Source of the DNA: Anaerolineae bacterium
GTDB taxonomy: Bacteria > Chloroflexota > Anaerolineae > B4-G1
Assembly: GCA_030612585.1 (NCBI GenBank)
Contig: JAUWNP010000096.1
Location: 1 to 16,520, forward strand
Direction: 5' to 3'
Length of the DNA stretch: 16,520 nucleotides
A program made the translations under genes and the position numbers. Every line of letters starts with the position of its first letter. Positions within the stretch are counted from its first letter, which is position 1. Below are positions 1,921 to 14,628 of the stretch, one piece after another. Below the pieces are notes generated by a model, which saw only the letters and a list, made by a program, of their open reading frames with translations, was not told the DNA's origin and did no database searches.

Positions 1921-3078
1921 GTGAACCTGTGGATTGAAACCGCGCATCAGGGCCTCGCCAGAGTCGGCGAGGAGGTATGCGGGGAAGCGGTAAGAACTTT
2001 TCAAACCGAAGAGCGTTTTTTTGTTATCCTTGCCAGCAGCCCACAGGGTGGGGCGGAGGGATCCGCCCGGGCCGACGCGACGGCGGAGCGCGCCATGGAG
2101 ATGGCGCAAGCGGGAGATGCGCCTGACCGCGTGGCGGAGGCCCTCATAGTCGCACCTCCCGCCAGCGAGGAGATCACTTTTTCCATTCTGCAAGTATCGG
2201 ACGGAGACCGGGCCCACCTGGTGGAGTGCGAAGCCTTGCCCCTATGCCTGATCCGGCGCGGCGAGGTGGAGTTCCTGCCGCTGAGTGAAGAGGTTGCCCA
2301 CGGGCGGCTACTACGCGAGTGTTACTTCTGGCTGCAAGATGGCGACTATATGGTGATGGTCAGCCAGGGCTACCTGCGCCCCCGACCCCCCCATCCCCCC
2401 TATCGGGGGGACAGAGGGGGGTGGGGGTGGAACTGGACCGACGTCGCCGTCGCCGTGCGACGCTGGACAGACACCCGCTGTGACGCCGACGAACTGCTGG
2501 GCGCACTGGTGCGCACCTACCGCCGCCTGAACCCCGAAGCGCCCCGGCAGGACGTGACCGTCGTCGCTATGCAAGCCCGCCCTGTGCGTACCGTCATGGT
2601 GTGGACTGGACCGCCGGTTGACCCGGCACAGGACGAGGTGGCGTTGAGAAAATTGATGGCTGAGCCAGGTACGCGGGCCATCTGCGGCGACACCACCGCC
2701 CAGATCGCCGCCCGGCTGCTGGGGGCCGAACTAGAGATGGAGCCCCGCCCCGAAGACGGCTGGGCGGAGGTGCCGCCCGTCGCACGCCTGGAGGGAATGG
2801 ACCTGGTCACGGAGGGGTTGGTGACGATGGGCAAGGCGCGGGAGCGTATGGCAGGGGCAAAGCGGGTGCGCGATCTCCCCCGGGGGGAGGACGGAGCCAC
2901 GCGGTTGGCCCGTGCATTGCTGGCAGCCGACAGGATCCACTTTATCGTCGGCTTAGCAGTTAACCCGGCTCAGGCTGCCGACGCCGCCCGCACTGTCCCG
3001 CTACGGCAGGCAGTGGTGGAGGAATTGATGCACGACCTGAAGGCGCGGCGTAAGTTGGTGTCGGTTGAATACTTGTAA
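1921..3078 (+). CDS. SpoIIE/PP2C-family protein, probably catalytically degenerate
   Basis: This 385-residue protein starts at GTG 1921. The start is chosen because MNLWIETAHQGLARVGEEVCGE matches the usual beginning of the SpoIIE-like phosphatases beside hydrogenase operons; the Shine-Dalgarno is weak. Later family text includes FSILQV, LVECEALPLCLIRRGE, GWGWNWTDVAVAV, LVRTYRRLNPE and QDVTVVAMQARPVR. Active members have metal-binding Asp in an LSDGLGSG-type motif, in a VSDG motif and in DDATV. Here these positions read LASSPQGG, VSQGYLRP and QDVTV, so two DG motifs are gone. It may therefore act as a binding or scaffold pseudophosphatase that partners the kinase-type ATPase upstream. A proline/glycine-rich stretch at residues 153-166 comes from an inserted G/C repeat. 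It lies just upstream of the HdrA/Nuo/Flox operon. Confidence 0.75.
   Translation: MNLWIETAHQGLARVGEEVCGEAVRTFQTEERFFVILASSPQGGAEGSARADATAERAMEMAQAGDAPDRVAEALIVAPPASEEITFSILQVSDGDRAHLVECEALPLCLIRRGEVEFLPLSEEVAHGRLLRECYFWLQDGDYMVMVSQGYLRPRPPHPPYRGDRGGWGWNWTDVAVAVRRWTDTRCDADELLGALVRTYRRLNPEAPRQDVTVVAMQARPVRTVMVWTGPPVDPAQDEVALRKLMAEPGTRAICGDTTAQIAARLLGAELEMEPRPEDGWAEVPPVARLEGMDLVTEGLVTMGKARERMAGAKRVRDLPRGEDGATRLARALLAADRIHFIVGLAVNPAQAADAARTVPLRQAVVEELMHDLKARRKLVSVEYL
2378..2430. repeat. G/C-run inverted repeat inside the SpoIIE-like gene
   Basis: Runs of five to seven C (CCCCCGACCCCCCC, then ATCCCCCC) are followed after TAT by matching G runs up to GGGGGTGG, an imperfect foldback. It is translated in frame as a Pro/Arg then Gly/Trp-rich segment between the family blocks GYLRP and GWGWNW. 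A related element closes the window inside hypF. Confidence 0.75.
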
Positions 3079-3141
3079 CGAATTTACGAATCTACGAATC
3101 TACGAATTTACGAATTTACGAATTCACGAATCTACGAACCC
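3078..3141. repeat. 8-bp tandem repeat array, 8 units of ACGAATYY
   Basis: Eight uninterrupted octamers of consensus ACGAAT(T/C)(T/C) begin at the last base of the SpoIIE-like stop codon and end at a CCAGGAG ribosome-site-like sequence. The last unit is ACGAACCC. The array fills nearly half of the leader of the hdrA operon. It has no visible coding function. Confidence 0.9.
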
Positions 3142-3215: not shown

Positions 3216-4061
3216 ATGGAGCAACCTAAAATCGGCGTATACATCTGCGAATGCGGCATCAACATTGCCGCCACGGTCAACGTACCGGAGGTAGTCACCT
3301 TCGCCAGCCGGTTGCCCAACGTGACCGTCGCCCGCCAATACAAGTACATGTGCTCCGAGCCCGGCCAGAACATGATCAAAGACGACATTCGGGAGTTGGG
3401 CCTCACCCGCGTGGTGGTCGCTTCCTGTACCCCACGCATGCACGAGCCCACCTTCCAGACCGCCGTCGCTGAAGCCGGCCTCAATCCCTACTACTTTGCC
3501 ATGGCCAACATCCGCGAGCACTGCTCCTGGATCATCAAGGACATGGGGCTGGCGACGGCCAAGGCGAAGCGGTTGGTCAGTTCGGCCATCTATCGGGTGG
3601 TCTACCAGGAAGCACTGGAGTCACACAAGGAGCCGGTCACCCAAGCGGCGCTCGTCGTCGGTGGGGGCATCGCCGGCATCCAGGCGGCGCTCACGATGGC
3701 GGATGCTGGCTACCCGGTCTACCTGGTTGAGCGGGAGCCCTCCATCGGCGGCCACATGGCCGAACTGGACAAGACCTTCCCCACCCTTGACTGTAGTACC
3801 TGAATTCTCGGCCCCAAGATGATGGATGCCGGTCGGCATCCCAACATTACGCTCCTGAGTTACAGTGAGGTCGAGGAGGTTTCGGGCTATGTGGGCAACT
3901 TTAAGGTCAAGGTGCGCAAGAAGGCCCGCTACGTAGACGAGGACAAGTGCAACGGCTGCGGCCTGTGCTGGACCGAGTGTATGACGCGGCGCGTCCCGTC
4001 CCTGAAACTGATCAAGATGGGCGAGATGAGCATTGGGGAGAGGAGGCCCGGAGAGCGATGA
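3216..4061 (+). CDS. hdrA: HdrA N-terminal half, probable selenoprotein (UGA 3801 = Sec196)
   Basis: HdrA is the FAD-binding bifurcating subunit of heterodisulfide reductase complexes. With UGA at 3801-3803 read through, the product is 281 residues, against roughly 650 or more for a complete HdrA. In order: the N-terminal HdrA Fe-S domain (Cys11, 13, 46, 71 in ASCTPRMHEP, 103), the dinucleotide motif GGGIAG (149-154), REPSIGGHMAELDKTFPTLDCST, Sec196, then ILGPKM, and the first cluster of the inserted ferredoxin domain (Cys245, 248, 251, 255). It stops soon after that cluster. The complementary half is fused to the NuoG-like protein at 6720-8492. HdrA proteins have Cys at residue 196; some methanococcal and deltaproteobacterial HdrAs have Sec. 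The stop at 4059-4061 overlaps the nuoE ATG (ATGA), which is strong evidence that the frame downstream of the UGA is translated. The Shine-Dalgarno is GAGAGGTG. Confidence 0.9.
3801..3841 (+). promoter_or_regulatory. Sec UGA codon and bacterial SECIS-like hairpin
   Basis: UGA (3801-3803) is followed 27 bases later by a GGUC apical loop (3831-3834) closed by a perfect 7-bp stem, GGATGCC (3824-3830) with GGCATCC (3835-3841). An outer ATG/CAT pairing is possible across a small internal loop. The E. coli fdhF SECIS has the same GGUC tetraloop, with G-U recognised by SelB. The loop distance falls within the spacing I know for bacterial SECIS elements, though it is longer than in fdhF. The hairpin lies wholly inside coding sequence, as expected for bacterial selenoproteins. 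Confidence 0.8.
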
Positions 4062-4531
4062 GCCTGGATCAAGTCAACGAGATCATTGATCGCTATGGCG
4101 CTGACCGGGCGGTCAGCCTGGCTGTGCTGCAGGACATCCAACGGGAGTACAACTACCTGCCACGCGAGGCACTGGAACTGGTGGCCGAGCGGCTGAGTAT
4201 ACCTCTGGGCGAGGTCTATCACATAGCCACTTTCTACCGCAGTTTTACTCTCAGACCGAAGGGGGAATATTGCATCCGCGTGTGCATGGGCACCGCCTGC
4301 TACGTGCACGCTGGTCCGCTTATCCTAGAAGCGTTTGAGCGAGAATTGGGAATCAAGGCCGGCGAGAGCACTTCCGACGGCAAGTTCTCACTGGAGGCGA
4401 CCTCCTGTCTGGGAGCCTGTGCGCAGGCACCTCTTGTGATGGTCAACGAGGAACCGTATGCCAAGATGACCACCGATCGTGTCAGCGAAGTGATAGAGAC
4501 GTGCAGTTGCGCGCTTCCAGAGGCAGCATAG
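4058..4531 (+). CDS. nuoE: NuoE/HydC-like [2Fe-2S] thioredoxin-fold subunit
   Basis: This 157-residue protein has the usual length of the NuoE/HoxE/HydC family. The N-terminal helical part (AVLQDIQREYNYLP, then EVYHIATFYRSF) leads into a thioredoxin-like domain whose [2Fe-2S] ligands are Cys76 and Cys81 (CMGTAC) and Cys117 and Cys121 (CLGAC). In NADH-linked hydrogenases and complex I this subunit docks on NuoF. Its ATG overlaps the hdrA stop (ATGA), so it is translationally coupled to the Sec-containing gene; GAGAGGAGGCC upstream supplies the Shine-Dalgarno. The pairing with the nuoF-like gene at 4921 implies an NADH-oxidising or NAD-reducing module built into an Hdr complex. Confidence 0.93.
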   Translation: MSLDQVNEIIDRYGADRAVSLAVLQDIQREYNYLPREALELVAERLSIPLGEVYHIATFYRSFTLRPKGEYCIRVCMGTACYVHAGPLILEAFERELGIKAGESTSDGKFSLEATSCLGACAQAPLVMVNEEPYAKMTTDRVSEVIETCSCALPEAA

Positions 4532-4546
4532 GGAGGAGATAACACA

Positions 4547-4918
4547 ATGCCTAGACTTAAGAGTTTAGAAGAACTGCAGAAGTTGCGCCAGCAATTGCAG
4601 AAAGACATCAAGGCCCGCACCGAGACAAGCACAACCATCACGGTAGGCATGGGCACCTGTGGCATCTCGGCCGGGGCGCGGGAAACGATGCACGCCATTT
4701 TGGCCGATCTAGAGGCGCGCAACATTGACGCTCACGTGACCACCGTCGGCTGCATCGGCATGTGTTCGAAAGAGCCGCTGGTGGACATCCAGCAGGGCGG
4801 CGAACCCCGCATCACCTACGGCAACGTCACGCCCGCCATGGTACCGCGTATCATCGAGGAACACGTGGTACAGGGCAACGTGGTGGAAGAGTGGGCCGTC
4901 GGGCGGGTAGGAGGATGA
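4547..4918 (+). CDS. Thioredoxin-like (2Fe-2S) ferredoxin of the Hyd/Hnd type
   Basis: This 123-residue protein starts at ATG 4547 behind GGGAGGAG. After a helical N-terminus (LEELQKLRQQLQKDI) comes the ferredoxin core: VGMGTCGISAGARETM with Cys38, and VGCIGMCSKEPLVDI with Cys69 and Cys73. Only three cysteines are visible, as I recall for this family. Such genes lie between the hydC- and hydB-like genes of multimeric [FeFe] hydrogenase and NAD-linked dehydrogenase operons, exactly as here. It probably relays electrons near the NuoF flavin. Its stop overlaps an ATG at 4915, but the better nuoF start is 4921. Confidence 0.88.
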   Translation: MPRLKSLEELQKLRQQLQKDIKARTETSTTITVGMGTCGISAGARETMHAILADLEARNIDAHVTTVGCIGMCSKEPLVDIQQGGEPRITYGNVTPAMVPRIIEEHVVQGNVVEEWAVGRVGG

Positions 4919-4920
4919 GA

Positions 4921-6705
4921 ATGGCTGAACGATATCGTGTCGACGTACTGGTCAGTTGCCTGCACGACCGCGCACCGGACCTGATACCGGCGCTTGAAGC
5001 GGAGGTGAAACGGCGTGGCCTGGAGGGAGAGGTCAGAGTGGTCGAGGCCGGCTGCCGGGGCTTTTGCTCTATGGGGCCGGTGCTCCTGATCCAGCCTGAT
5101 GGCATCTTTTACATCGGGGTGCAACCCGCCGACGTGCCCGAATTGGTGGAGGAGACACTAGTCAAGGGCCGGGTCGTCGAGCGACTAACATACAGAGAAC
5201 CGACGACACGCAGACGCATTCCTTACTACGAGGACATCCCTTTCCACGCTAAGCAGATGCGCATCGTCTTACGCAACTGCGGGATGATCAACCCTCAGTC
5301 CATCGAAGAGTACATCGCTGTCGGCGGCTACCAGGCGCTGGCAAAGGCACTCACCTCAATGACTCCTAAAGAGATCATCGAGGAGGTCAAAAAATCGGGG
5401 TTGCGGGGCCGTGGCGGGGCCGGCTTCTCCACCGGCCGCAAGTGGGAGTCCGGCCGTAAGGCCGAGGGCGACCCTAAGTACGTCATTGTCAACGGTGACG
5501 AGGGCGACCCCAACTGCTTTATGGACCGCGCGCTGATGGAGGCTGACCCGCACAGTATCCTGGAGGGGCTAGTCATCGGCGCCTACGTCATCGGTGCTCA
5601 CCAGGGGTTCTTCTATATTCCTTACGAGCACACGCTGGCGGTGAGGAGCGTGAGGACCGCTATCGAGCAGGCGCGAGAGTATGGACTGCTAGGCGAGGAC
5701 ATCCTGGGCTCCGGCTTCGATTTCGACGTGGAACTCAGGCTTGGGGCCCACTCCTTCGTAGGTGGCGAGTCCACCGCGCTGATGCACGCCGTGGAGGGCA
5801 GAGTCAGCGAGCCACGCCCCAAGCATATCCACACCACCGAGAAAGGGGTGTGGGGCCAGCCCAGTTGTCTGAACAACGTCAAGACCTTGAACATGGTGCC
5901 GGAGATCATCAATCGCGGCGCCGAGTGGTTCGCCAGCATTGGCACCGAAACCAGCAAGGGGACACAGGTCTTCTCGCTGGCCGGCAAGGTCAACAACGTG
6001 GGACTGGTTGAGGTGCCGATGGGTACCACCATCCGCGAATTGGTCTTCGACGTGGGTGGTGGCGTTCCCAAGGGGCGGGAGTTCAAAGCAATTCAGATCG
6101 GCGGCCCTTCGGGGGGCTGTGTCCCCGCCAGCCTGCTGGATATGCCTATGGACTACGAGACGTTGGCCGAGGCAGGCTCAATGATGGGTACCGGCGGGGT
6201 GATCGTCTGGGACGACCGCATCTGCGTGGTAGACGTCGCCCGCTACTTCCTCGACTTCCTGCGAGACGAATCCTGTGGCAAATGTACGTCCTGTCGTGAG
6301 GGTATCCGGCGTATGCTGGAGATCCTGACCCGCATCACCGAGGGACAGGGGAAGATGGCCGATCTGGAGACGTTGGAGACGCTAGGGCGGGTGGTAAAAT
6401 CGGTCTCGCTGTGCGGCCTGGGCAAGACGGCGCCCGATCCCTTCCTCAGCGGCCTGCGCTACTTCCGCGATGAGTACGTGGCCCACGTCGTGGACCACAA
6501 GTGTCCGGCCGGCGTCTGCAAGGCACTGATCGAGTACTACATCATCGAGGACCTGTGCACCGGCTGTGGTCTTTGCCGCCGCAAGTGCCCGCAGGAGGCA
6601 ATCAGCGGGGAGAAGAAGGAGCCACACGTCATTGACCCGGCGCTGTGCATCAAATGTGGCATCTGTCGCGACGTCTGCAAGTTCGACGCGGTGGGCGTGA
6701 GATAA
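4921..6705 (+). CDS. nuoF: NuoF/HydB/HndC-like NADH:FMN oxidoreductase subunit
   Basis: This 594-residue protein has the layout of HydB-type subunits. Residues 1-90 are a thioredoxin-like [2Fe-2S] domain with Cys13, 45 and 49; the fourth ligand expected near residue 17 is absent (SCLHDRA). The FMN/NADH core follows, with LRGRGGAGFSTGRKW and NGDEGDPNCFMDRALMEADPH, then the [4Fe-4S] ligands Cys452, 455, 458 and 498 (ESCGKCTSCREG, SLCGLGK). The C-terminus adds two ferredoxin motifs (CTGCGLCRRKC, CIKCGICRDVC). It exchanges electrons between NAD(H) and the Fe-S chain, and in some hydrogenases this subunit hosts flavin-based bifurcation. ATG 4921 is chosen over ATG 4915 because TAGGAGG (4908-4914) would leave no spacing to 4915 but six bases to 4921. 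Confidence 0.93.
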   Translation: MAERYRVDVLVSCLHDRAPDLIPALEAEVKRRGLEGEVRVVEAGCRGFCSMGPVLLIQPDGIFYIGVQPADVPELVEETLVKGRVVERLTYREPTTRRRIPYYEDIPFHAKQMRIVLRNCGMINPQSIEEYIAVGGYQALAKALTSMTPKEIIEEVKKSGLRGRGGAGFSTGRKWESGRKAEGDPKYVIVNGDEGDPNCFMDRALMEADPHSILEGLVIGAYVIGAHQGFFYIPYEHTLAVRSVRTAIEQAREYGLLGEDILGSGFDFDVELRLGAHSFVGGESTALMHAVEGRVSEPRPKHIHTTEKGVWGQPSCLNNVKTLNMVPEIINRGAEWFASIGTETSKGTQVFSLAGKVNNVGLVEVPMGTTIRELVFDVGGGVPKGREFKAIQIGGPSGGCVPASLLDMPMDYETLAEAGSMMGTGGVIVWDDRICVVDVARYFLDFLRDESCGKCTSCREGIRRMLEILTRITEGQGKMADLETLETLGRVVKSVSLCGLGKTAPDPFLSGLRYFRDEYVAHVVDHKCPAGVCKALIEYYIIEDLCTGCGLCRRKCPQEAISGEKKEPHVIDPALCIKCGICRDVCKFDAVGVR

Positions 6706-6719
6706 GGGAGGGATACGAT

Positions 6720-8492
6720 ATGGCTACACTGATCATTGACGGACAAAAGGTCCAAGCCGAAGAAGGGCAGACTATCCTTGAGGTCGCCCGGCAGGCAGGG
6801 ATCGAGATTCCCGCTCTATGTTATCACCCACTCCTGGAGCCCTACGGCGCCTGCCGCCTCTGTGTGGTAGAAGTGATCCGCAGGGGTTGGTCCAGGATAG
6901 AGACATCCTGCACGTATCCCGCGTGGGATGGACTGGAGGTCAAGACCCGCTCCCCGGCCATCATCGAGGCCCGCAAGGTCGTCCTGGGGTTGCTGCTCTC
7001 GCGCTGCCCCAACGTGCCGGTCATCCAGGACCTGGCGCGGGAGTACGGGGTCACAGAGCCACCTTTCCCAGTAGACGATCCGGACGAGAAATGTATCCTC
7101 TGCGGCCTATGCGTGCGCACGTGCCACGAACTGGTGAAAGCCGACGTGTTGAACTTCTCCCAGTCCGGTGTTGAGCGGCGGGTTGGGCCGCCCTTCCTGG
7201 AAAAGACCCGCCAGTGCATCGGCTGTGGGGCCTGCACCATTATGTGCCCCACCGGTGCTATCGAGATCGTACTGGAGAAAGAGGCGGTCTACAAGGAAAA
7301 GCCGCTGGGGCCGACCTCGGCTATCTGGGTGCCATCGCTGCAAGCGGTGCCCCGCGTGCCGGTGATCGACACCGACGCCTGCATCCGTTTCCGCCAGAAC
7401 GACCGCAGCAACGGTGAAATCGCGGATGCCTGCGGGGTCTGCGACATGGTGTGCGAGGCCGGCGCGATCAACTTTGACCAACAGGACGAGGTGCTGGAAC
7501 TGGACGTGGGAACCATCATCGTCGCCACCGGCTTCGAGATGTGGGACCCCCACCAACTCTCACAATACTCCTACGGCAAGTCGCCCAACATCATTACCGG
7601 CCTCGAGTTCGAGCGTCTCTCCAACGCCGGTGGCATCACCGGCGGCGAGATCCTGACCGCTGAAGGGAAGAAACCCGAGCGCGTGGCGATCATCCACTGC
7701 GTCGGCAGCCGGGATCACAACGCTCATCCCTACTGCTCCCGCATCTGCTGTATGTACTCACTCAAGCAGGCCCACCTGGTGCGCGACAAGACCGGGGCCG
7801 ATGTGTACGAGTTTTACATGGACATGCGCGCCTTCGGCAAGGCCTACGAAGAGTTCTACGAGCGGGTGCAGAAGGAGGGCATCTGCATGGTGCGCGGTCG
7901 CGGCGCCGAGGTGGAGGTGCTCCCTGACGGCAAACTGCGCGTCAAGGGGGAGGACGCCAACCTGGGCCGGATGGTGCAGGCGGACGTGGACATGGTGGTG
8001 CTCAGCACGGCCATCGAAGCCCCGCACGACGCCAGTCGAGTGGCTTCTCTCTTTGGCCTGAGCCTCTCTGAGGACGGTTTCTTTGCCGAAGCGCATCCCA
8101 AAATGCGCCCGGTGGAGACCAACACCGACGGGGTGTTCCTGGCCGGTGTCGCCCAGGGCCCCAAGGACGTGCCGGATACGGTGGCCCACGCCGGCGCGGC
8201 GGCGTCTATGGCGCTGGCGCTGCTGGACAAGGGCGAGGTTACGATCTCACCGACGGTTTCGCATGTGTTGACTCGCTATTGCACGGGATGTGGCAAATGC
8301 GTCGTTGTCTGTCCATACACGGCCATCAGTCTGGGCGAAGACAGTAAGGCGAACGTCAACGCTGCACTGTGCAAGGGGTGTGGCTCCTGCGCCGCAGCCT
8401 GCCCGTCAGACGCCATCACGCCGCTACACTTTACCGATGACCAATTGGTCGGGCAGATTATGGGGGTGCTCTATGAGCAAATCGTCATCTAA
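6720..8492 (+). CDS. Fusion: NuoG/HoxU-like Fe-S module + HdrA C-terminal half
   Basis: This 590-residue protein starts at ATG 6720 behind AAGGGAGGG. Residues 1-75 are a NuoG/HoxU-type [2Fe-2S] domain (Cys34, 45, 48, 64). The His-ligated cluster motif of true NuoG is replaced by LSRCPNVPVIQDLA. Two [4Fe-4S] clusters follow (Cys125-135 and Cys166-176). From about residue 195 the text is HdrA: IWVPSLQAVPRVPVID, a cluster at Cys221, 238, 241 and 245, LELDVGTIIVATGFEMWDP, VAIIHCVGSRD with PYCSRICCMYSLKQ, FYMDMRAFGKAYEEFY, the FAD-closing NTDGVFLAGVAQGPKDVPDTV, and a C-terminal 2x[4Fe-4S] ferredoxin (Cys521-531, 551-561). It complements the HdrA half at 3216-4061 almost exactly, so one FAD site would be shared by two chains. 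The total is about seven Fe-S clusters. Confidence 0.9.
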   Translation: MATLIIDGQKVQAEEGQTILEVARQAGIEIPALCYHPLLEPYGACRLCVVEVIRRGWSRIETSCTYPAWDGLEVKTRSPAIIEARKVVLGLLLSRCPNVPVIQDLAREYGVTEPPFPVDDPDEKCILCGLCVRTCHELVKADVLNFSQSGVERRVGPPFLEKTRQCIGCGACTIMCPTGAIEIVLEKEAVYKEKPLGPTSAIWVPSLQAVPRVPVIDTDACIRFRQNDRSNGEIADACGVCDMVCEAGAINFDQQDEVLELDVGTIIVATGFEMWDPHQLSQYSYGKSPNIITGLEFERLSNAGGITGGEILTAEGKKPERVAIIHCVGSRDHNAHPYCSRICCMYSLKQAHLVRDKTGADVYEFYMDMRAFGKAYEEFYERVQKEGICMVRGRGAEVEVLPDGKLRVKGEDANLGRMVQADVDMVVLSTAIEAPHDASRVASLFGLSLSEDGFFAEAHPKMRPVETNTDGVFLAGVAQGPKDVPDTVAHAGAAASMALALLDKGEVTISPTVSHVLTRYCTGCGKCVVVCPYTAISLGEDSKANVNAALCKGCGSCAAACPSDAITPLHFTDDQLVGQIMGVLYEQIVI

Positions 8493-8928
8493 CGCAATCG
8501 AGGGATTTGAACCCAAGGTTGTCGCGTTTCTGTGTAACTGGTGTTCCTACGCCGCGGCCGACAGCGCTGGCGTGGCGCGGATACCGTCGCCGCCCAACGT
8601 CCTGCCGGTGCGCGTGATGTGTTCTGCGCGCGTCTCGGCCGAGTTGATCCTGAAAGCGTTCATGTCTGGCGCCGACGGCGTAATCGTGCTGGGGTGCCAC
8701 ATCGGTGACTGCCATTACGATAGTGGCAACCATCGCACGGTCAAGCGCATCCCGCTCTTGCACAAGTTGCTGATCTACATGGGTGTCGAGCCTGATCGGC
8801 TGCGGCTCAAGTGGGTTTCCGCCGCCGAGAGCCCACAATTCGCCCAGGTGACTAACGAGTTTGTCGAAGACGTGCGCGCATTAGGGCCGCTTTCGGCGCC
8901 GCTACGAATGGAAGGAGGTGCGCCTTGA
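8473..8928 (+). CDS. MvhD/FloxD-like [2Fe-2S] protein
   Basis: This 151-residue protein is the usual MvhD length. The ATG overlaps the preceding fusion gene by 20 bases, with GGGGGTG as Shine-Dalgarno. Diagnostic text is FLCNWCSYAAADSAGVAR (Cys21, 24), VMCSARV (Cys50) and LGCHIGDCHYDSGN (Cys75, 80). MvhD transfers electrons from a hydrogenase, formate dehydrogenase or Flox module to HdrA. In some methanococci the homologue carries Sec, but here the usual positions are Cys. Its place directly after the HdrA C-half and ahead of the FloxCBA-like genes fits a docking subunit between the Flox module and the split HdrA. Confidence 0.93.
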   Translation: MSKSSSNAIEGFEPKVVAFLCNWCSYAAADSAGVARIPSPPNVLPVRVMCSARVSAELILKAFMSGADGVIVLGCHIGDCHYDSGNHRTVKRIPLLHKLLIYMGVEPDRLRLKWVSAAESPQFAQVTNEFVEDVRALGPLSAPLRMEGGAP

Positions 8929-9788
8929 TCGAAGAACTCTGTGCCAAGGTGCGGGAACTGCTAGAAAATGAGACGGTAGAATGTGTGATCGGCTACGAGG
9001 TCGGGCCGACGGGCCGTGTGCGCCCGGCGTTCATCCACGAGCCAGACGAGGTTGGCCGGCTGATCTTTAACACCCGGTGTGACCATAATCTGGTCACCTA
9101 CCTGAATCGGCGCAACAAGCCGCGCAAGAAAGGCGAGGAGGTGCCAACCACCGGGATTCTGGTCAAGCCGTGCGATGCGCGTTCGCTGCAGGTGCTGCTC
9201 AATGAGAATCAGGTACAGCGCGACAAGGTTTACATCATTGGCATGGCCTGCCCGGGGATGCAGAATGCCGACGGCACGCTGGAGGCGCGCTGTGCGCGCT
9301 GTGATCAACGAGTGCCATTGCTCTACGACGCGCTCTTCGGCGAACCTCCGGAGGTCTCCGCCGTCGCTGATACCTACACCGACATCGAGGATCTGGAGGC
9401 GCTGCCACGAGATGACCGGCTGGCTTACTGGCTGGGCGAATTCGACCGCTGCATCCGCTGCTACGCCTGTCGTCAGGCCTGTCCTGGCTGTTTCTGCGAC
9501 GTCTGTGAATCTGAACGCGACGACTCGTTGTGGATAGGCATTACCGATGCTATTCCAGAGAAGGCGTTTTTCCACATTACCCGGGCCTTTCACCTGGCAG
9601 GTCGCTGCGGTGAATGTAATGCCTGTGAAATGGTCTGCCCGATGGGTATCCCGCTCAGTCTCCTCAACTGCAAGATTGTCAAGGAGGTCGAGCAAATGAT
9701 GGGAGGCTACCGCGCTGGCTTGAGTGAAGAACCTACGCCTCTGGTCACGAAACTCACAGGCGAGGAGGATATCAATGAGATTCATTAA
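8925..9788 (+). CDS. FloxC-like 4Fe-4S dicluster protein (FrhB/FdhB-like N-terminus)
   Basis: This 287-residue protein uses a TTG start (8925) behind AAGGAGGTG, and TTGA overlaps the MvhD stop. Residues 1-170 resemble the N-terminal part of F420-hydrogenase/formate-dehydrogenase beta-type proteins (ILVKPCDARSLQVLL, VYIIGMACPGM). They contain extra cysteines, including Cys83, 109, 123 and 126. The C-terminal part has two ferredoxin-type clusters: CIRCYACRQACPGCFCDVC (Cys176, 179, 182, 186, with further Cys189, 191, 194) and CGECNACEMVCP (Cys228, 231, 234, 238). The gene order MvhD - this gene - AsrA-like - AsrB-like matches FloxDCBA. I assign FloxC mainly by that order and the dicluster layout. 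It is probably an electron relay between FloxB and HdrA. Confidence 0.75.
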   Translation: MIEELCAKVRELLENETVECVIGYEVGPTGRVRPAFIHEPDEVGRLIFNTRCDHNLVTYLNRRNKPRKKGEEVPTTGILVKPCDARSLQVLLNENQVQRDKVYIIGMACPGMQNADGTLEARCARCDQRVPLLYDALFGEPPEVSAVADTYTDIEDLEALPRDDRLAYWLGEFDRCIRCYACRQACPGCFCDVCESERDDSLWIGITDAIPEKAFFHITRAFHLAGRCGECNACEMVCPMGIPLSLLNCKIVKEVEQMMGGYRAGLSEEPTPLVTKLTGEEDINEIH

Positions 9789-10827
9789 CACACAGGCGTT
9801 ACGTGACTGGCTCGATACCCTGGCCCGGAAGGTGACGCTCATCGCACCAGTGCCGTCCAACATCGGTGAAGCGCCGGGACTGGCCCATCTACCCGCTGCG
9901 GGGATGTATGCGCTCTACCGGCCTGTGGGCAGCGCCGATGAGATCGTGTGGGATTTCCAGCGCACGGTGATATCGGCCCGCGAGTTTCTCTTTCCCAAAA
10001 CCGAAACTCTCTTCACCATCGAGACCGATGTCGGCGGTGAGGTTACACTGCACGAGACCAAGATGGAAGGGCAGCAGGTGATCTTTGGCATCCGCCCTTG
10101 CGACGCACGCGGCATACGCGTACTGGATGCAATCATGCTGGAGCAGGATCCGGCCGATGCCTACTACGCCCAGCGCCGCCGTAATACGACGTTGGTGGGA
10201 CTGTCCTGCCCGGAGATGTGGGAGAACTGCTTCTGCACCAGTGTGGGCGGCGCACCGAATGTCAGTGACGATATGGACATCCTGTTGACTCAGGTCGAAA
10301 GTGGATACGCCGTGGAAATCGTCACCGAAAAGGGAGAGAGACTCGCTCAAGGGATGGCGTTGCAGGAGGTGGAGGGACTGGTGCTGCCGGAGCCGAAACT
10401 CAACGAAACGTTCGAGACGCCGACGGAGCAGCAATGGCTAGACTCGTTCGATGATGTCTACTGGGACAGAGTGGGTGAGCGGTGCCTGAGTTGCCGCGCC
10501 TGTGTCTACGTCTGCCCTACCTGCCGCTGCTTCGACGTGCGCGATGAGAAAGTGGTTCACCCTGACGGCGGGAACATCACGCGGCGGGTGCGCAGTTGGG
10601 ATAGTTGCCAGGGCGTGAATTATCGCACTGTGGCGGGTGGAGCCAACCCGCGGGTCAACCCTGGCCAGCGGTCGCGCAACCGCTTTTACTGTAAATTCTA
10701 CTACGTTCCCACAGATTACAACGTGCTCGTTGGGTGTGTGGGCTGTGGACGATGCATCGCCGTCTGTCCCGTCAACATAGACATCAGTGAGGTGCTACAC
10801 GATCTGGCACAGAGGGGGGAAGCATGA
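9775..10827 (+). CDS. FloxB / AsrA-like 4Fe-4S dicluster subunit
   Basis: This 350-residue protein starts at ATG 9775 behind GAGGAGG and overlaps the previous gene by 14 bases. An alpha/beta N-terminal domain has EFLFPKTETLF, VIFGIRPCDARGIRVLD and GLSCPEMWENCFC, typical of the anaerobic sulfite reductase A/FloxB family. Two [4Fe-4S] clusters follow at Cys237, 240, 243, 247 (CLSCRACVYVCP) and Cys321, 324, 327, 331 (CVGCGRCIAVCP), separated by a loop rich in Arg and Asn. The role is electron transfer from the FAD of the FloxA-like partner next door. The KPCDAR/RPCDAR motif is shared with the FloxC-like neighbour, so the two may be paralogous in their N-terminal halves. Confidence 0.85.
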   Translation: MRFINTQALRDWLDTLARKVTLIAPVPSNIGEAPGLAHLPAAGMYALYRPVGSADEIVWDFQRTVISAREFLFPKTETLFTIETDVGGEVTLHETKMEGQQVIFGIRPCDARGIRVLDAIMLEQDPADAYYAQRRRNTTLVGLSCPEMWENCFCTSVGGAPNVSDDMDILLTQVESGYAVEIVTEKGERLAQGMALQEVEGLVLPEPKLNETFETPTEQQWLDSFDDVYWDRVGERCLSCRACVYVCPTCRCFDVRDEKVVHPDGGNITRRVRSWDSCQGVNYRTVAGGANPRVNPGQRSRNRFYCKFYYVPTDYNVLVGCVGCGRCIAVCPVNIDISEVLHDLAQRGEA

Positions 10828-11681
10828 TGGAAAATCCCAAATCTCAAGTCCCAAATCCCATGCGTCCTTATCTAGGGACTTTGGTTGGCACGAAGGAACT
10901 GGCCACAAACATCCGATTGTTTCAGATTGAACTCAACGACCCCGTAGAGCGGGAGAAGTTCTTCGTCTGGAGACCGGGGCAGTTTCTCTTCTTCTCTGCT
11001 CTTGGCGTGGGCGAAGCGCCATTCGGGTTCGCAAACATCCCCGAGTATGGCCCTGCCATTGAGGTCGCTATCAACGATGTGGGTCACGTGACCCGCCACA
11101 TCCACATGCTGCCATTGGGCTCCACAGTGGGCATACGTGGTCCTTTGGGCAATCACTTCCCAATGGATGAGATCAAGGGGCAGAATATCGTCGTGTTGGG
11201 TGGTGGCATCGGTGGCGCCCCTCTGCGTCCAGTCATTCAGTACATCCTGAGCCATCGCGCCGACTATGGTCATCTGACTATCATCTGGGCGGCGCGCAGC
11301 CCCGATCTGCTGGTCTTCACCGACGAATACGATGAGTGGAGCAATGCGCCCGATACAGAGATGCACGTCACCATTGACCGGCCGGCGGAGGGATGGACGG
11401 GCAACGTAGGGTTGATCACCCAGACTCTGGAGCAAGCCGCCCCGTCGCCAGAGAACACCACATCCATCACCTGCGGTCCGCCTATCATGATCTACTTTGT
11501 CGGTAAGACGCTGAACAAGTTGGGCTTTTCGGAAGACCAAATGTTGATCACGCTTGAAGCACGTATGCACTGCGGCGTTGGCAAGTGTGGTCGCTGCAAT
11601 ATGGGCGAAAAACTCGTCTGCCTGGATGGGCCGGTGTTCCGCCAATCAGAGGTCAGTACGTTCCTGGAGAGTTTCCTGTAA
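10824..11681 (+). CDS. FloxA / AsrB-like FAD/NAD(P)-binding subunit
   Basis: This 285-residue protein of the ferredoxin-NADP reductase superfamily starts at ATG 10824, which overlaps the previous stop (ATGA). The FAD domain has WRPGQFLFFSALGVGEAPFG, the NAD(P) domain has VVLGGGIGGAPLRPVI and SITCGPPIMI, and the C-terminal [2Fe-2S] site has Cys250, 255, 258 and 266 (HCGVGKCGRC...VC). It probably oxidises NAD(P)H, or reduces NAD(P), for the Flox/Hdr complex. It is a second NAD-reactive flavoprotein beside NuoF. Residues 3-12 are encoded by four 7-bp AATCCCA-type units, so the native protein probably began near the internal ATG 10860 (MRPYLGTL). This is the last gene of the overlapping operon. 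Confidence 0.9.
   Translation: MMENPKSQVPNPMRPYLGTLVGTKELATNIRLFQIELNDPVEREKFFVWRPGQFLFFSALGVGEAPFGFANIPEYGPAIEVAINDVGHVTRHIHMLPLGSTVGIRGPLGNHFPMDEIKGQNIVVLGGGIGGAPLRPVIQYILSHRADYGHLTIIWAARSPDLLVFTDEYDEWSNAPDTEMHVTIDRPAEGWTGNVGLITQTLEQAAPSPENTTSITCGPPIMIYFVGKTLNKLGFSEDQMLITLEARMHCGVGKCGRCNMGEKLVCLDGPVFRQSEVSTFLESFL
10833..10860. repeat. 7-bp tandem repeat (AATCCCA type) at the FloxA-like N-terminus
   Basis: Four heptamers, AATCCCA, AATCTCA, AGTCCCA and AATCCCA, sit directly behind the start codon and are translated as ENPKSQVPNP. The array separates ATG 10824 from a second in-frame ATG at 10860. Confidence 0.85.
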
Positions 11682-11685
11682 GGCC

Positions 11686-11730
11686 GGACGACTCGGGTTC
11701 GTCCCCGGGGCAGACACACGGGTCTGCCCC
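11686..11730. repeat. REP-like palindromic element after the Flox-like operon
   Basis: A 9-bp perfect stem, GGGGCAGAC (11707-11715) with GTCTGCCCC (11722-11730), closes a 6-base loop. A weaker 6-bp stem lies just upstream (GGACGA 11686-11691 with TCGTCC 11699-11704). The type is common between genes in repeat-rich bacterial genomes. There is no T tract after it, so it is not a standard intrinsic terminator, though it could stabilise the mRNA 3' end. Confidence 0.65.
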
Positions 11731-11859
11731 TACTACGAGGAGGTGAAGATAGAGAGAGTAGAGAGACGAACACGGCACATCGTTGGGGAACGCTCGAACA
11801 AAATCAGCGTCTCCCGGCATGACAAATTGGATTGAAATAACATAAAAGGAGATTTCAGA

Positions 11860-13197
11860 ATGATAAAGACAGATGCATTGATCATCGGCGGCAGCGCCGC
11901 CGGGCTCGTGGCAGGGATCACCGTAAGGCGTCACTATCCCGACGCCAAGATCACGCTTGTCCGCAAGGAGCAGCAGGTAATGATCCCGTGCGGCATCCCG
12001 TACATCTTTGGCACGGTGGGCTCCACGGACAACAACCTGATCCCGGATGCGGCGCTTTCCAAGAACGGCATTGACCTAATCGTTGACGAGGTCACCTCCA
12101 TAGACCGGGAGGCGAAAACGGTCGCCACGGCCGGGGGAGAGACCATCGGCTACGAGAAACTCTTCCTGGGCATCGGCTCCCAGCCGCTTGTCCCGCCCCT
12201 GCCCGGCGTGGACCTGGAGGGCGTGTTCAGCATCAAGAAGGACGTTCCATATCTGAACAGTCTGCTGGCGGCCCTGGACGAGGCCAAGGACGTGGTTGTC
12301 ATCGGTGGGGGCTTTATCGGGCTAGAGATGGCCGATGAGTGCAAGAAGCGCGGCCTGAACGTCACCGTGGTCGAGATGCTTCCCCACTGTCTCTTTCTGG
12401 TCTTTGACGAGCACATCTGCGTGCGTATGGAGGAGACACTCGCCGAACGGGGCATCAAGGTGATGACGAACAACCAGGCGATGGCCATCCTGGGAGATGG
12501 CAAGGTCGAGGGTGTGAAACTTGGTAACGGCGAGGAATTAAAGGCCGACGTGGTCATCTTTGGAATCGGTGTGCGACCCAACGTGAAACTTGCTCAAGAC
12601 GCCGGGCTAAAGATGGGTGAACGGCGGGACGTATGGGTGGACCGCTATATGCGCACCAGCGACGACGATATCTTTGCCGTGGGAGACTGCGCGGGGAAGA
12701 TGGACTTTATCACCAACAGGCCGTCCGGTCTGCGTCTGGCCTCTATCGCCACGACTGAAGCACGCATCGCCGGGGCAAACTTTGGCGAGTTGAGGCGCGA
12801 GAGCGTGGGCGTTATCGGCGTGTTCTCCACCAAAGTCGGCAACCTGTCGTTGGGAATGGCCGGGATGCGCGCCAAGACGGCTCAGGAAGCAGGTCTCGAC
12901 GTCGTCGTGGGTACGGCAGAGACCATCAACAGGCACCCCGGCGGTATGCCCGGCGCGGCCAAGATGCGGGTAGACCTGGTTTTCCACAAGTGGTCGTGCA
13001 AACTCATTGGCGGCCAGGTCTCTGGCGGCGACAGCGTGGGCGAGTTCGTGAACGTCATCGCGGCTGCCATCGCAGCCGGAGCAACGGCCGACGAAATCGC
13101 AACTTTCCAGGTAGGCACGCACCCTGCACTCACCGCCTCTCCCATCGCTTACCCGCTGGTGAATGCCGCTGAACTGGCGCTGAAGCAGATGCGTTAG
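11860..13197 (+). CDS. CoA-disulfide/persulfide reductase-like (NADH oxidase family) flavoprotein
   Basis: This 445-residue protein starts at ATG 11860 behind AAAAGGAG. It has the family layout: FAD motif IIGGSAAGLVAGI (8-20), the redox cysteine Cys44 in VMIPCGIPYIFG, the NAD motif VVIGGGFIGLEMADE, the second FAD motif DDIFAVGDCAG, and a C-terminal dimerisation domain ending ASPIAYPLVNAAE. Cys44 in this position is typical of CoA-disulfide reductases, NADH oxidases and NADH-dependent persulfide reductases; substrate cannot be read from sequence. It is separated from the Flox-like operon by about 180 bases with a REP-like element, so it may have its own transcript. Its position beside an Hdr-type complex that lacks HdrB makes a thiol/disulfide substrate plausible. 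Confidence 0.88.
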   Translation: MIKTDALIIGGSAAGLVAGITVRRHYPDAKITLVRKEQQVMIPCGIPYIFGTVGSTDNNLIPDAALSKNGIDLIVDEVTSIDREAKTVATAGGETIGYEKLFLGIGSQPLVPPLPGVDLEGVFSIKKDVPYLNSLLAALDEAKDVVVIGGGFIGLEMADECKKRGLNVTVVEMLPHCLFLVFDEHICVRMEETLAERGIKVMTNNQAMAILGDGKVEGVKLGNGEELKADVVIFGIGVRPNVKLAQDAGLKMGERRDVWVDRYMRTSDDDIFAVGDCAGKMDFITNRPSGLRLASIATTEARIAGANFGELRRESVGVIGVFSTKVGNLSLGMAGMRAKTAQEAGLDVVVGTAETINRHPGGMPGAAKMRVDLVFHKWSCKLIGGQVSGGDSVGEFVNVIAAAIAAGATADEIATFQVGTHPALTASPIAYPLVNAAELALKQMR

Positions 13198-13420
13198 CAA
13201 ACGTTGCGTCTCAGCGCTACGCGGCGCGCTGGCCTATCATCACATCACCGATGAGGATAGAAACACGATAAGGCGGCTGACGCAGTTAGTCGAGTAGCCG
13301 GTAGGCTGGTAGATTGGTAGGTTGGTAGCTGGTAGATTGGTCTCCTCGACCAATCTGCCAAATTACCAATTTACCAATCTACATTTTTGAGAGGACGCTT
13401 CTTCAGATAGAAGGAGGGCT
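13198..13420. other. Repeat-rich spacer with a possible coding remnant
   Basis: Between the flavoprotein and the hyp genes no intact gene is seen. At 13219-13296 one frame (GCG CTA CGC to TAG 13294-13296) reads like the end of a protein (ALRGALAYHHITDEDRNT, closing in LTQLVE), possibly a gene remnant, with no start or upstream domain. The repeat array at 13300-13382 follows, then a Shine-Dalgarno (AAGGAGGG) for the next start. Confidence 0.4.
13300..13382. repeat. Inverted pair of 8-bp tandem arrays (GGTAGATT / ACCAATCT)
   Basis: The left arm has five units of GGTAG(A/G)TT type, one shortened. The right arm has four of ACCAATCT type. They meet at a hairpin, AGATTGGT (13334-13341) with ACCAATCT (13349-13356), around a 7-base loop. 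Outer units also pair (GTAGATTGGT 13309-13318 with ACCAATCTAC 13373-13382), giving a long imperfect foldback. ATTTTTG follows at once, so the structure could terminate transcription between the flavoprotein and the hyp operon. Confidence 0.8.
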
Positions 13421-13618
13421 TTGAAGACATTGGTGCTTGGTCTGGGCAACCCAATCCTGACCGATGATGGGGCGGGCATCTACGTCGTGCGGGAGATGGC
13501 GACGCACTGTCAGTGGAATGACGTGACCTTCGGTGAAAGTTGTACGTCCGTGGTTACGGCAGCCATCCCTCGCGCCGTAGAAGCGGTAGTGGCCGAGTTG
13601 GAGACGGGAGAGCAGTAG
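13421..13618 (+). pseudogene. [NiFe]-hydrogenase maturation protease, internally deleted
   Basis: The frame opens with TTG 13421 behind AAGGAGGG and gives 65 residues, against about 150 for HycI/HyaD-type proteases. Residues 1-29 (LVLGLGNPILTDDGAGIYVVREM) match the family N-terminus. Residues 34-61 (DVTFGESCTSVVTAAIPRAVEAVVAEL) match the usual C-terminus. The roughly 85 residues between, which hold the later conserved Asp and His of the nickel-recognition site, are missing. The frame is kept across the joint. The protease normally removes the C-terminal extension of the large hydrogenase subunit after nickel insertion, and this remnant is unlikely to do so. Its stop overlaps the hypA GTG (TAGTG). 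Confidence 0.8.
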
Positions 13619-13959
13619 TGCACGAACTGGCCGTCACCCAGAGTATGCTCAATTTGGCCTTGGAGTATGCCGAGCGGGCGAGCGCTCAGCGCATCACGTG
13701 CATCAACCTGGTCATCGGCGAGTTGTCGGGCATCATGGACGAGAGTGTGCAATTCTACTTCGATTTCGTCAGCAAGGACACACTGGCTGAGGGAGCGCAA
13801 CTGGTGTTCGAGCGCATGCCGGCCCGCTTCCGCTGCCGCGCCTGCGGCCACGAATTCGCGCTGCAGGATGGCAACTGGGCCTGTCCCGCCTGTCAGGAGT
13901 GGGGCGGCGAGATCATCGCCGGGCGGGAATTTTATATGGATAGCATTGAGGTGGAGTGA
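13618..13959 (+). CDS. hypA: HypA, hydrogenase nickel-insertion chaperone
   Basis: This 113-residue protein has the standard HypA length. It uses GTG 13618, overlapping the protease remnant's stop (TAGTG), because that start gives MHELAVTQSML. His2 is the family nickel ligand. The C-terminal part has the zinc site Cys73, Cys76 (CRAC), Cys89 and Cys92 (CPAC), followed by an ending (GREFYMDSIEVE) typical of the family. It delivers nickel with HypB to the hydrogenase large subunit. No Shine-Dalgarno is evident upstream, so it probably depends on translational coupling with the frame before it. This may explain why the deleted protease frame has stayed open. Confidence 0.95.
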   Translation: MHELAVTQSMLNLALEYAERASAQRITCINLVIGELSGIMDESVQFYFDFVSKDTLAEGAQLVFERMPARFRCRACGHEFALQDGNWACPACQEWGGEIIAGREFYMDSIEVE

Positions 13960-13977
13960 GGGGGCAGGAGGCACATT

Positions 13978-14628
13978 TTGAAAGTCGAAATTGTCAAAAA
14001 TATCCTAAGCGCCAACGAGCAGATCGCGCATGAAAACCGGCGGCTGTTTGACGAGAAAGGCATCTTCGTGCTTAACATCATGGCCGCGCCGGGCGCGGGG
14101 AAGACGAGTCTCATTGAGCGCACCATCGAAGTGCTGCGAGACCGTCTGCGCATCGGCATGATTGACGGCGACGTCGCCTCAACCATTGACGCCGACCGCA
14201 TCGCCCGCCTGGGCATTCCGGCGGTGCAGATCAATACCGGCGGGGCCTGTCACCTGGACGCCAACATGGTGCGCGTCGCTTTGCCCAGGCTGCCGCTGGA
14301 CGAGACCGATTTGCTGCTCATTGAGAACGTGGGCAACCTCATCTGCCCCACCGGCTTTGCCCTGGGAGAACACCTCAAGGTAATGATCGCCAGCACACCC
14401 GAAGGGGACGACAAGCCATACAAGTATCCGGGCATGTTCAGCGCGGTGGACGTGCTGGTGCTTAACAAAGTGGATCTGTTGCCCCTGTTGGAATTCGACC
14501 TGGACTACTTCCGCCGTGGCGTCGAGGCATTGAACCCCGACGTCGCCTTCTTCCCCGTGTCCTGCAAGACGGGGGAGGGGGTGCCGGAGTGGGCGGAGCG
14601 GATAGTTGAGAGATATCAGGCAGGTTGA
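13978..14628 (+). CDS. hypB: HypB, nickel-handling GTPase
   Basis: This 216-residue GTPase starts at TTG 13978 behind CAGGAGG. The P-loop is APGAGKTS (37-44), IDGDVAS follows, the metal-site pair is Cys91-His92 in GGACHLDANMV, Cys123 lies in NVGNLICPTGFALGEHLKV, and NKVD (163-166) is the guanine-specificity motif. The N-terminal CxxCGC nickel site and the His-rich stretch of some HypBs are absent, as in many short HypBs. It supplies GTP-dependent nickel insertion with HypA. Its TGA overlaps the hypF ATG (TGATG). Confidence 0.95.
   Translation: MKVEIVKNILSANEQIAHENRRLFDEKGIFVLNIMAAPGAGKTSLIERTIEVLRDRLRIGMIDGDVASTIDADRIARLGIPAVQINTGGACHLDANMVRVALPRLPLDETDLLLIENVGNLICPTGFALGEHLKVMIASTPEGDDKPYKYPGMFSAVDVLVLNKVDLLPLLEFDLDYFRRGVEALNPDVAFFPVSCKTGEGVPEWAERIVERYQAG

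Follow-up and report, generated by a model that had tools for sequence, protein, structure and literature searches.

A predicted selenocysteine-containing HdrA encoded in two halves around Nuo genes in a Chloroflexota-like bacterium

Introduction

Selenocysteine (Sec) has been reported in HdrA proteins of methanogens, Deltaproteobacteria and Clostridia, and the available portion of the same source also mentions, for Deltaproteobacteria, an hdrA_N-unknown-hdrA_C split (PMC1794560). The first-pass annotation of the DNA analyzed here had named some methanogens and deltaproteobacteria as groups with Sec at this HdrA site. Reviews, as excerpted, list HdrA as a CxxU selenoprotein (PMC13188914, PMC9312934), and the known Sec-HdrA proteins (NF040770/COG1148) have the same CxxU motif (PMC1794560, PMC13188914, PMC9312934, in the sections available) as the window, by which we mean the whole 16,520-nt stretch of DNA that was analyzed. 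Desulfobacterium autotrophicum HRM2 has Sec HdrA/HdrL, a Sec HdrA beside mvhD, and HdrA domains distributed over two or three genes; unlike in the window, a nuoE-nuoF insertion is not described in the accessible text of that report (PMC2702500). Part of another paper notes that gene callers truncate the Sec HdrA of methanogens (PMC12054007). The excerpts at hand of two papers on Chloroflexi report a Sec formate dehydrogenase and do not mention Sec HdrA (PMC4959059, PMC5736913). Searches of the open-licence literature gave us no account of Sec-HdrA in Chloroflexota, nor of a nuoG::hdrA-C fusion.

Among complexes built around HdrA, methanogen HdrA2/HdrABC-MvhAGD (5odc) resembles the window, three genes of which together cover the HdrA-MvhD family model NF040770 nearly end to end. 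HdrA in 5odc is one chain with Cys at position 197 and works with HdrBC, whereas neither HdrB nor HdrC was matched among the operon proteins scanned in the window (3216-13197). The Bfu family (HydABC/NuoEFG-like), including Bam-Bfu, resembles the window in that NuoE, NuoF, and a NuoG-like subunit occur beside an HdrA module, according to the part of the source available (PMC9304861). At the level of domain matches, PF01512, PF10589, and PF01257 are present in the window and would fit a BfuB/BfuC core, NuoF-like with FMN and NuoE-like. In contrast to Bfu, the window joins its NuoG-like subunit to the HdrA C-half in one protein, and the proteins scanned included no catalytic domain of benzoyl-CoA reductase or [FeFe]-hydrogenase. 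The FlxABCD-HdrABC complex, as described in an excerpted report, served as a further comparison system for the operon (PMC6687939). The window differs from it in that hdrBC are missing from the window proteins scanned and nuoEF are inserted in hdrA. We take the likeness gene by gene to consist of MvhD followed by Fe-S and FAD/NAD(P) subunits next to HdrA, the Fe-S protein encoded from 8925 presumably being FlxB-like by its position.

Relative to known Sec-HdrA, the window is distinguished by a Chloroflexota-like host, interruption of hdrA by nuoE-fdx-nuoF, and a nuoG'::hdrA-C fusion. The selenoprotein family itself is known, the lineage has been little described, and the architectural variant seems to be new. 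Here we describe this locus and the comparative evidence that the UGA within its hdrA-N gene is very probably decoded as Sec.

Results

The HdrA reading frame continues across an in-frame UGA

A mechanically called open reading frame at 3216-3803 closes at TGA 3801-3803 after ...PTLDCST, with 195 residues preceding the UGA, and hdrA-N beyond the UGA comprises 85 more residues ending at TGA 4059-4061 (Table 1). Continuation of HdrA text for 85 residues to a stop overlapping the nuoE ATG, as first annotated, is confirmed from the frame. Residues 1-256 of hdrA-N aligned with residues 1-257 of methanogen HdrA (5odc_A) at an E value of 1.8e-105. In this alignment residue 196 pairs with Cys197, and C11, C13, C46, C71, and C103 also correspond to Cys in 5odc_A; an FAD-binding motif was recognized at residues 146-182 (PF12831/PF00890).

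Table 1. Features of the hdrA-N locus and downstream operon in the window
Feature	Position	Strand	Basis
hdrA-N, HdrA N-terminal half read through UGA (N-terminal Fe-S domain, FAD-binding part, first Cys motif of inserted ferredoxin domain)	3216..4061	+	281 aa + stop
UGA codon, proposed Sec196, CxxU motif DCSTU	3801..3803	+	alignment of HdrA-like genes
SECIS-like stem-loop, 7 bp, GGUC loop 3831-3834	3824..3841	+	folding, conservation, covariation
ATGA overlap, hdrA-N stop/nuoE start (ATG 4058-4060)	4058..4061	+	sequence
nuoE/hoxE-like 2Fe-2S subunit	4058..4531	+	PF01257; NF005722 just over cut-off
Small thioredoxin-like 2Fe-2S protein (fdx)	4547..4918	+	PF01257 just below cut-off
nuoF-like FMN/NAD subunit, extra ferredoxin motifs	4915..6705	+	PF01512, PF10589, Fer4
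nuoG-like N-terminal Fe-S domains fused to HdrA C-half	6717..8492	+	Fer2_4, Fer4, NF040770
mvhD/flpD-like subunit	8479..8928	+	PF02662; NF040770 646-773
Fe-S protein	8925..9788	+	Fer4 motifs; 71% identical in L011
Sulfhydrogenase beta/AsrA-like Fe-S protein	9769..10827	+	NF040829, TIGR02910, both below cut-off
Sulfhydrogenase gamma/AsrB-like FAD/NAD(P) subunit	10824..11681	+	PF00175, PF10418; NCBIfam below cut-off

We scanned genome contigs for relatives and found 132 stretches encoding one, the best 80 of which gave 78 loci. These derive mostly from MAGs titled Chloroflexi/Chloroflexota, Anaerolineae, Thermoflexales, or Dehalococcoidia, together with one Deltaproteobacteria and one Acidobacteriota MAG. 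Among the 89 aligned HdrA-like genes of the window and the 78 loci (one further match, in L022, lacks residue 196 and was dropped), codon 196 is TGA in 70 and Cys in 16, bearing out the annotated TGA at the Cys position of HdrA (DCST-x-ILGPKM). The three genes with other residues are distant paralogues of 38-45% identity, and TAA or TAG was found at this codon in none of the 89. With UGA in 70 of the 86 Sec or Cys genes of this mostly Chloroflexota set, Sec-HdrA is not unusual in the lineage, contrary to the initial impression. Close relatives keep both the TGA and an intact downstream frame; varied disrupted codons with decay downstream, one of two outcomes named at the outset as refuting, were not seen. 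The other, a genome devoid of Sec machinery, did not appear among the UGA genomes of relatives searched (see below). Elsewhere, the in-frame TAA reported for L182 and L183 proved to sit just before the start Met, with Cys at site 196, and L127 is a distant paralogue whose TGA lies at residue 13 and not at site 196.

Database proteins present the same alternation. After 8000 homologues had been scored, 109 of the 120 matches listed have Cys at site 196, and the remaining 11 stop exactly after DCxx, as foreseen for standard gene callers, which would cut the protein at 195 residues; these 11 share 91-98% identity with the hdrA-N product of the window across 69% of its length. Two 281-aa database proteins carry Cys at the site: P0004 (78% identical) has the same peptide in the hairpin region described below, and in P0005 (75% identical) that peptide is altered.

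According to the available portion of a structural report, Cys197 of HdrA ligates the N-terminal [4Fe-4S] cluster across protomers (PMC9012536). Since residue 196 corresponds to this trans ligand, Sec196 would most likely ligate the [4Fe-4S] cluster across the dimer, and from this structural analogy we favor, with reasonable though not strong confidence, a role as its selenolate ligand. The papers retrieved by one literature search for Sec as an iron-sulfur ligand concerned formate dehydrogenases. Alternatively, Sec196 could be a redox-active selenol that forms a CxxU selenenylsulfide with Cys193, which would change its role and not its decoding. The excerpted reviews place the CxxU of HdrA beside redox-active selenoproteins, but the described function of the aligned Cys197 as a cluster ligand speaks against a redox selenol, which we regard as a rather unlikely role for this residue.

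A conserved stem-loop follows the UGA

Bacterial SECIS elements are stem-loops located shortly after the UGA, with G or GU in the apical loop. The window has a stem-loop that fits this description, in which GGATGCC (3824-3830) and GGCATCC (3835-3841) form 7 bp around a GGTC loop 27 nt past the UGA. The hairpin was correctly described in the first-pass annotation except for its distance, as the 27 nt hold for the loop and the stem itself starts 20 nt after the UGA. Its folding energy was not remarkable either over 50 nt (z -1.10; 26 of 200 shuffles as good) or over 30 nt (z -2.02; 11 of 200 as good). Rfam gave no SECIS family match in the window and 11 weak hits elsewhere in it, with E values up to 5 and all below gathering scores. 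It is the comparison among relatives, and not the folding energy, that takes the hairpin far beyond chance.

The codons for D204-A205-G206-R207, GAT GCC GGT CGG, are identical in all 70 UGA genes of the window and the 78 loci, and CAT follows them in 69 of the 70. Over residues 150-255, 38 other degenerate columns with the same residue in at least 95% of sequences had codon entropies of 0.37 to 1.80 bits. The locus scan used the peptide KMMDAGRH among six patterns, so this peptide was favored among the loci, whereas its codons were not. On both strands of the window and 106 loci (1.2 Mb in all, with overlap between a few loci), we counted 71 exact copies of the stem-loop 18-mer, and a TGA lies 20 nt upstream of every copy. 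We also scanned for the 18-mer pattern in 297 genomes of the phylum of G034, a MAG titled Deltaproteobacteria; 13 were positive, one of them G034 itself, in which the hairpin was already known and around which the group had been drawn, and a reversed-pattern control gave one in 297. In all 13 positive genomes a TGA lies 20 nt upstream of the 18-mer in the HdrA frame, and the peptide before the hairpin varies among them (MADAGRH, MTDAGRH, LLDAGRH).

The hairpin distinguishes UGA genes from Cys genes

For comparison of UGA and Cys genes, we pooled 166 matches, of which four with other residues were set aside and none was too short. GGTC in register with six or seven of the seven pairs was present in 84 of 99 distinct UGA 50-mers and in none of 30 Cys sequences (p 1.7e-18, kinship ignored). 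Thirteen loci had been fetched by the hairpin and most later ones for a reported TGA (two for TAA); because of this selection, these counts do not measure how common the hairpin or the TGA is. Without the loci fetched by hairpin, 72 of 87 UGA sequences carry it (p 4.9e-17, kinship again ignored), and in the window and the 78 loci alone the hairpin occurs in 51 of 51 distinct UGA sequences versus 0 of 13 with Cys.

Among further UGA HdrA genes, from the G034 phylum and Chloroflexota genomes, the sixth stem pair is C-G, U-A, or U-G, and the change from C-G to U-A, with U-G as intermediate, replaces Ala by Val on one side and is synonymous, in an Arg codon, on the other. When 54 of the 84 hairpin sequences were aligned, 98.9% of cells paired and 14 cells were changed on both sides, a number reached in none of 500 shuffles; shifting the partner by one to three columns lowered pairing to 21-57%. 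Compensatory variation is confined to one of the seven stem pairs, five being invariant and one broken in four sequences, and neither the number of covarying pairs nor that of pair types rose above the shuffles. Judged by this comparison of codons and pairs, selection acts on the hairpin at the RNA level.

Three distinct Cys sequences (L070, L073, L104) have six of seven pairs without the GGTC loop. Two of these, L070 and L073, retain the peptide MMDAGRHP; their stems contain a C-C mismatch, their loops read GGCC and GGGC, and they fold at -5.0 and -8.1 kcal/mol versus -12.3 kcal/mol. In the tree described below they group with the UGA gene of L103 (support 89), and for this reason the Cys genes L070:8501 and L073:10574 may preserve decaying traces of a Sec site that was lost. 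Conversely, 15 of the 99 distinct UGA sequences have no GGTC hairpin and have other short hairpins instead, as seen by inspection and partly from folds. These include GGGCG-AGGT-CGCCC, GGTGC-AGGTTA-GCACC and like forms, and TTGACGC-GG-type stems, and a GGAGTCATCCC group of UGA sequences has GGATG..GGAG..CATCC-type hairpins closer to the UGA. Different short hairpins, some in another register, were observed in L122-L124, L126, L173, L175, L177, L180, L184-L188, L192, and L195-L198. Variant hairpins of this kind are possible further SECIS types of the Sec-HdrA family.

The UGA could also separate a functional gene pair, in which translation stops at the UGA and restarts at the ATG codons 15 and 18 nt beyond it (codons 202-203), and the two polypeptides assemble, HdrA being already split elsewhere in the operon. 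Such an arrangement leaves unexplained the exclusive use of UGA, the frozen third-codon bases in the hairpin, and the existence of continuous Cys homologues without a GGTC hairpin, and the CxxC site would be left without its second residue. We consider a gene pair very improbable here, and decoding of the UGA as Sec the preferred reading.

Genomes of relatives encode selenocysteine machinery

Components for Sec insertion were sought in the genomes of relatives, first in 46 genomes behind 47 of the 78 loci and then in 16 more from the phylum survey. We designate these as UGA or Cys genomes by the locus that brought each one in, whatever other HdrA genes are present. First-batch genomes come from records titled MAG and may be incomplete. 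Among the 35 UGA genomes of this batch, SelB was over cut-off in 32, SelA in 31, and SelD in 29, and tRNA-Sec scored above 66 bits in 28; SelA or SelB was found in 35 of 35 UGA versus 6 of 11 Cys genomes. In the second batch, both SelA and SelB were found in four of five UGA and 9 of 11 Cys genomes, and machinery was not associated with UGA versus Cys in this batch alone. For both batches together, SelA or SelB was present in 39 of 40 UGA versus 15 of 22 Cys genomes (p 0.0021). With machinery also in 15 of the 22 Cys genomes, the association is modest overall, and having been strong in the first batch and absent in the second, it was rejected as proof.

Of 38 SelD matches over cut-off, 36 themselves contain an in-frame TGA. 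G074, a UGA genome, yielded neither SelA nor SelB and a tRNA-Sec at 69.7 bits. The MAG of the closest relative (G001) has SelA, SelB, and a UGA-containing SelD, with no tRNA-Sec above 50 bits. ARAGORN detected tRNA-Sec with anticodon TCA at L081 and L082 but not at L079 or L080, where the selB genes of G001 and G004 lie. There are no tRNA genes in the 16,520-nt window.

Altered genetic codes exist in some bacteria, and reading of the UGA as Trp, Cys, or Gly, by such a code or by near-cognate read-through, would likewise restore HdrA. However, none of the 15 other window genes checked is interrupted by an in-frame stop, hdrA-N itself terminates in TGA, Cys in homologues at this site is the expected partner of Sec, and in relatives a SECIS-like element and SelA, SelB, SelD, and tRNA-Sec accompany the UGA. 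A reading by altered code or read-through thus appears scarcely credible beside decoding as Sec.

Split hdrA with inserted Nuo genes is a conserved arrangement

The NF040770 model (777 positions) is covered from 1 to 254 by hdrA-N, from 264 to 641 by the C-terminal part of the 6717-8492 product, and from 646 to 773 by the 8479-8928 product, with scores of 368, 442, and 161 bits (sum 972; whole-protein cut-off 1100). Between the HdrA halves lie nuoE, the 2Fe-2S protein gene, nuoF, and the NuoG-like start of the fusion. As judged from these model matches, hdrA is interrupted inside its inserted ferredoxin domain.

The split had been thought unusual, but it is a conserved arrangement: the 85-residue ending followed by nuoE recurs in 15 other loci (L001-L014, L017), that is, in 16 of 16 split Sec genes including that of the window. 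That the TGA is an ordinary stop created by nonsense mutation, assembly error, or gene decay, with the rest untranslated, agrees with the mechanical frame, the 11 of 120 listed database matches that end there, and the hairpin's unremarkable folding energy alone. Against it, 69 further aligned genes have TGA at this codon and a frame that continues, TAA and TAG are lacking among the 89, the synonymous sites in the hairpin are frozen, and the 85-residue ending is exact in all 15 other split Sec loci. An ordinary stop is therefore extremely improbable.

The order nuoE-fdx-nuoF-nuoG::hdrA-C-mvhD is kept in all 10 loci whose contigs reach mvhD, with an additional 192-residue ORF ahead of nuoG in L001. 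ATGA occurs at the hdrA-N/nuoE junction in 15 of the 16 split Sec loci, and the junction ATG is the best-aligning nuoE start in 11 of the 16. A Cys version of the split has the same order, through nuoG::hdrA-C and mvhD in L121 and to nuoF, where the contig ends, in L120; the genomes of both also contain SelA and SelB.

In a quick tree whose root was not inferred, the split Sec genes fall inside a supported all-Sec group of 43 rows, and on this ground the split probably arose in a Sec-bearing lineage. The tree leaves out matches under about 200 residues, identical rows, genes with other residues at 196, and later loci, most of which were fetched for a reported TGA (two for TAA). The 16 split Sec genes as one clade were not rejected (p 0.93), with a likelihood better than that of the free tree, and one origin of the split Sec and split Cys forms gave p-AU 0.27. 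That every Sec HdrA row of this tree shares a single origin was rejected (p-AU 0.0002).

Genes after mvhD differ among relatives

After mvhD, both the window and L011 have Fe-S and FAD/NAD(P) subunits that resemble the beta and gamma subunits of sulfhydrogenase. In three relatives (L001, L008, L013), mvhD is followed by a formate dehydrogenase-type molybdopterin oxidoreductase, in the place where the Flx-like subunits sit in the window. From this gene content we infer that HdrA-Nuo-MvhD forms a fixed core with an exchangeable electron partner. The formate dehydrogenase-like gene of L013 (L013:16629-18716) has its own in-frame TGA (CARL-TGA-HAPTV) and is likely, from its sequence, a second selenoprotein of the operon. 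The L008 copy has two in-frame stops.

Elsewhere in the window, hypA, hypB, and hypF of [NiFe]-hydrogenase maturation occupy 13540-16520, and a hydrogenase catalytic subunit was not found among the window proteins scanned. Two 7-base arrays (15226-15259 and 16129-16164) lie inside the hypF frame. A long imperfect inverted repeat with GGTTGGTAG-like units lies at 13292-13400, between the reductase gene and hypA, and its Rfam matches were chance-level microRNA models only. Upstream of hdrA-N, a tandem 8-base unit, ACGAATTT, is present in 7.6 copies at 3078-3138. The gene at 1921-3078 encodes a 385-residue protein with no Pfam match, a relative of which is encoded upstream of hdrA-N in 12 of 15 other split loci; this protein is possibly a regulator of the complex.

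Discussion

The first-pass reading of hdrA-N as a selenoprotein gene is supported by the position of the UGA at a CxxC/CxxU site, a conserved and covarying hairpin, Cys homologues without this hairpin, and SelA or SelB in 39 of 40 UGA genomes of relatives. On the proposed mechanism, a complex of SelB and Sec-tRNA, steered by the stem-loop at 3824-3841, would read UGA 3801 as Sec196, and the ribosome would continue to the UGA at 4059, which overlaps the start of nuoE. The product would be the N-half of HdrA, the C-half being made as a fusion to the NuoG-like domain. With MvhD, NuoE, NuoF, and the 2Fe-2S protein, the halves would constitute an HdrA-type electron-bifurcating complex tied to NAD(H), a presumed route of electron flow in which Sec196 would provide selenolate ligation of the N-terminal cluster across the dimer.

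Since nuoE starts at a stop reached only by ribosomes that decode Sec, the UGA might act as a selenium gate. Coupling of nuoE translation to Sec decoding is a tentative proposal that we hold at somewhat less than even confidence. The combined proposition that Sec196 is a trans selenolate ligand, that the cut in hdrA fuses the electron-output module to the NuoG-like subunit, and that the UGA is a selenium gate is, taken as a whole, unlikely to hold in every part.

Relative to the literature found, the breadth of Sec-HdrA in Chloroflexota and the Nuo-wired split form are what appears new, neither having been found in print. Our findings extend the known range of Sec-HdrA to a large bacterial group that is mostly uncultured. 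As protein databases include truncated copies, a key bifurcating subunit can be overlooked when domains are counted or metabolism is reconstructed in anaerobic Chloroflexota, and the frozen, covarying hairpin offers a clean signature for finding further members of the Sec-HdrA family. If the proposed ligand role is right, the Sec and Cys versions of the gene would be a natural test set for the effect of selenium on an iron-sulfur cluster. If the selenium gate is true, the bifurcating complex would be built only when selenium is available.
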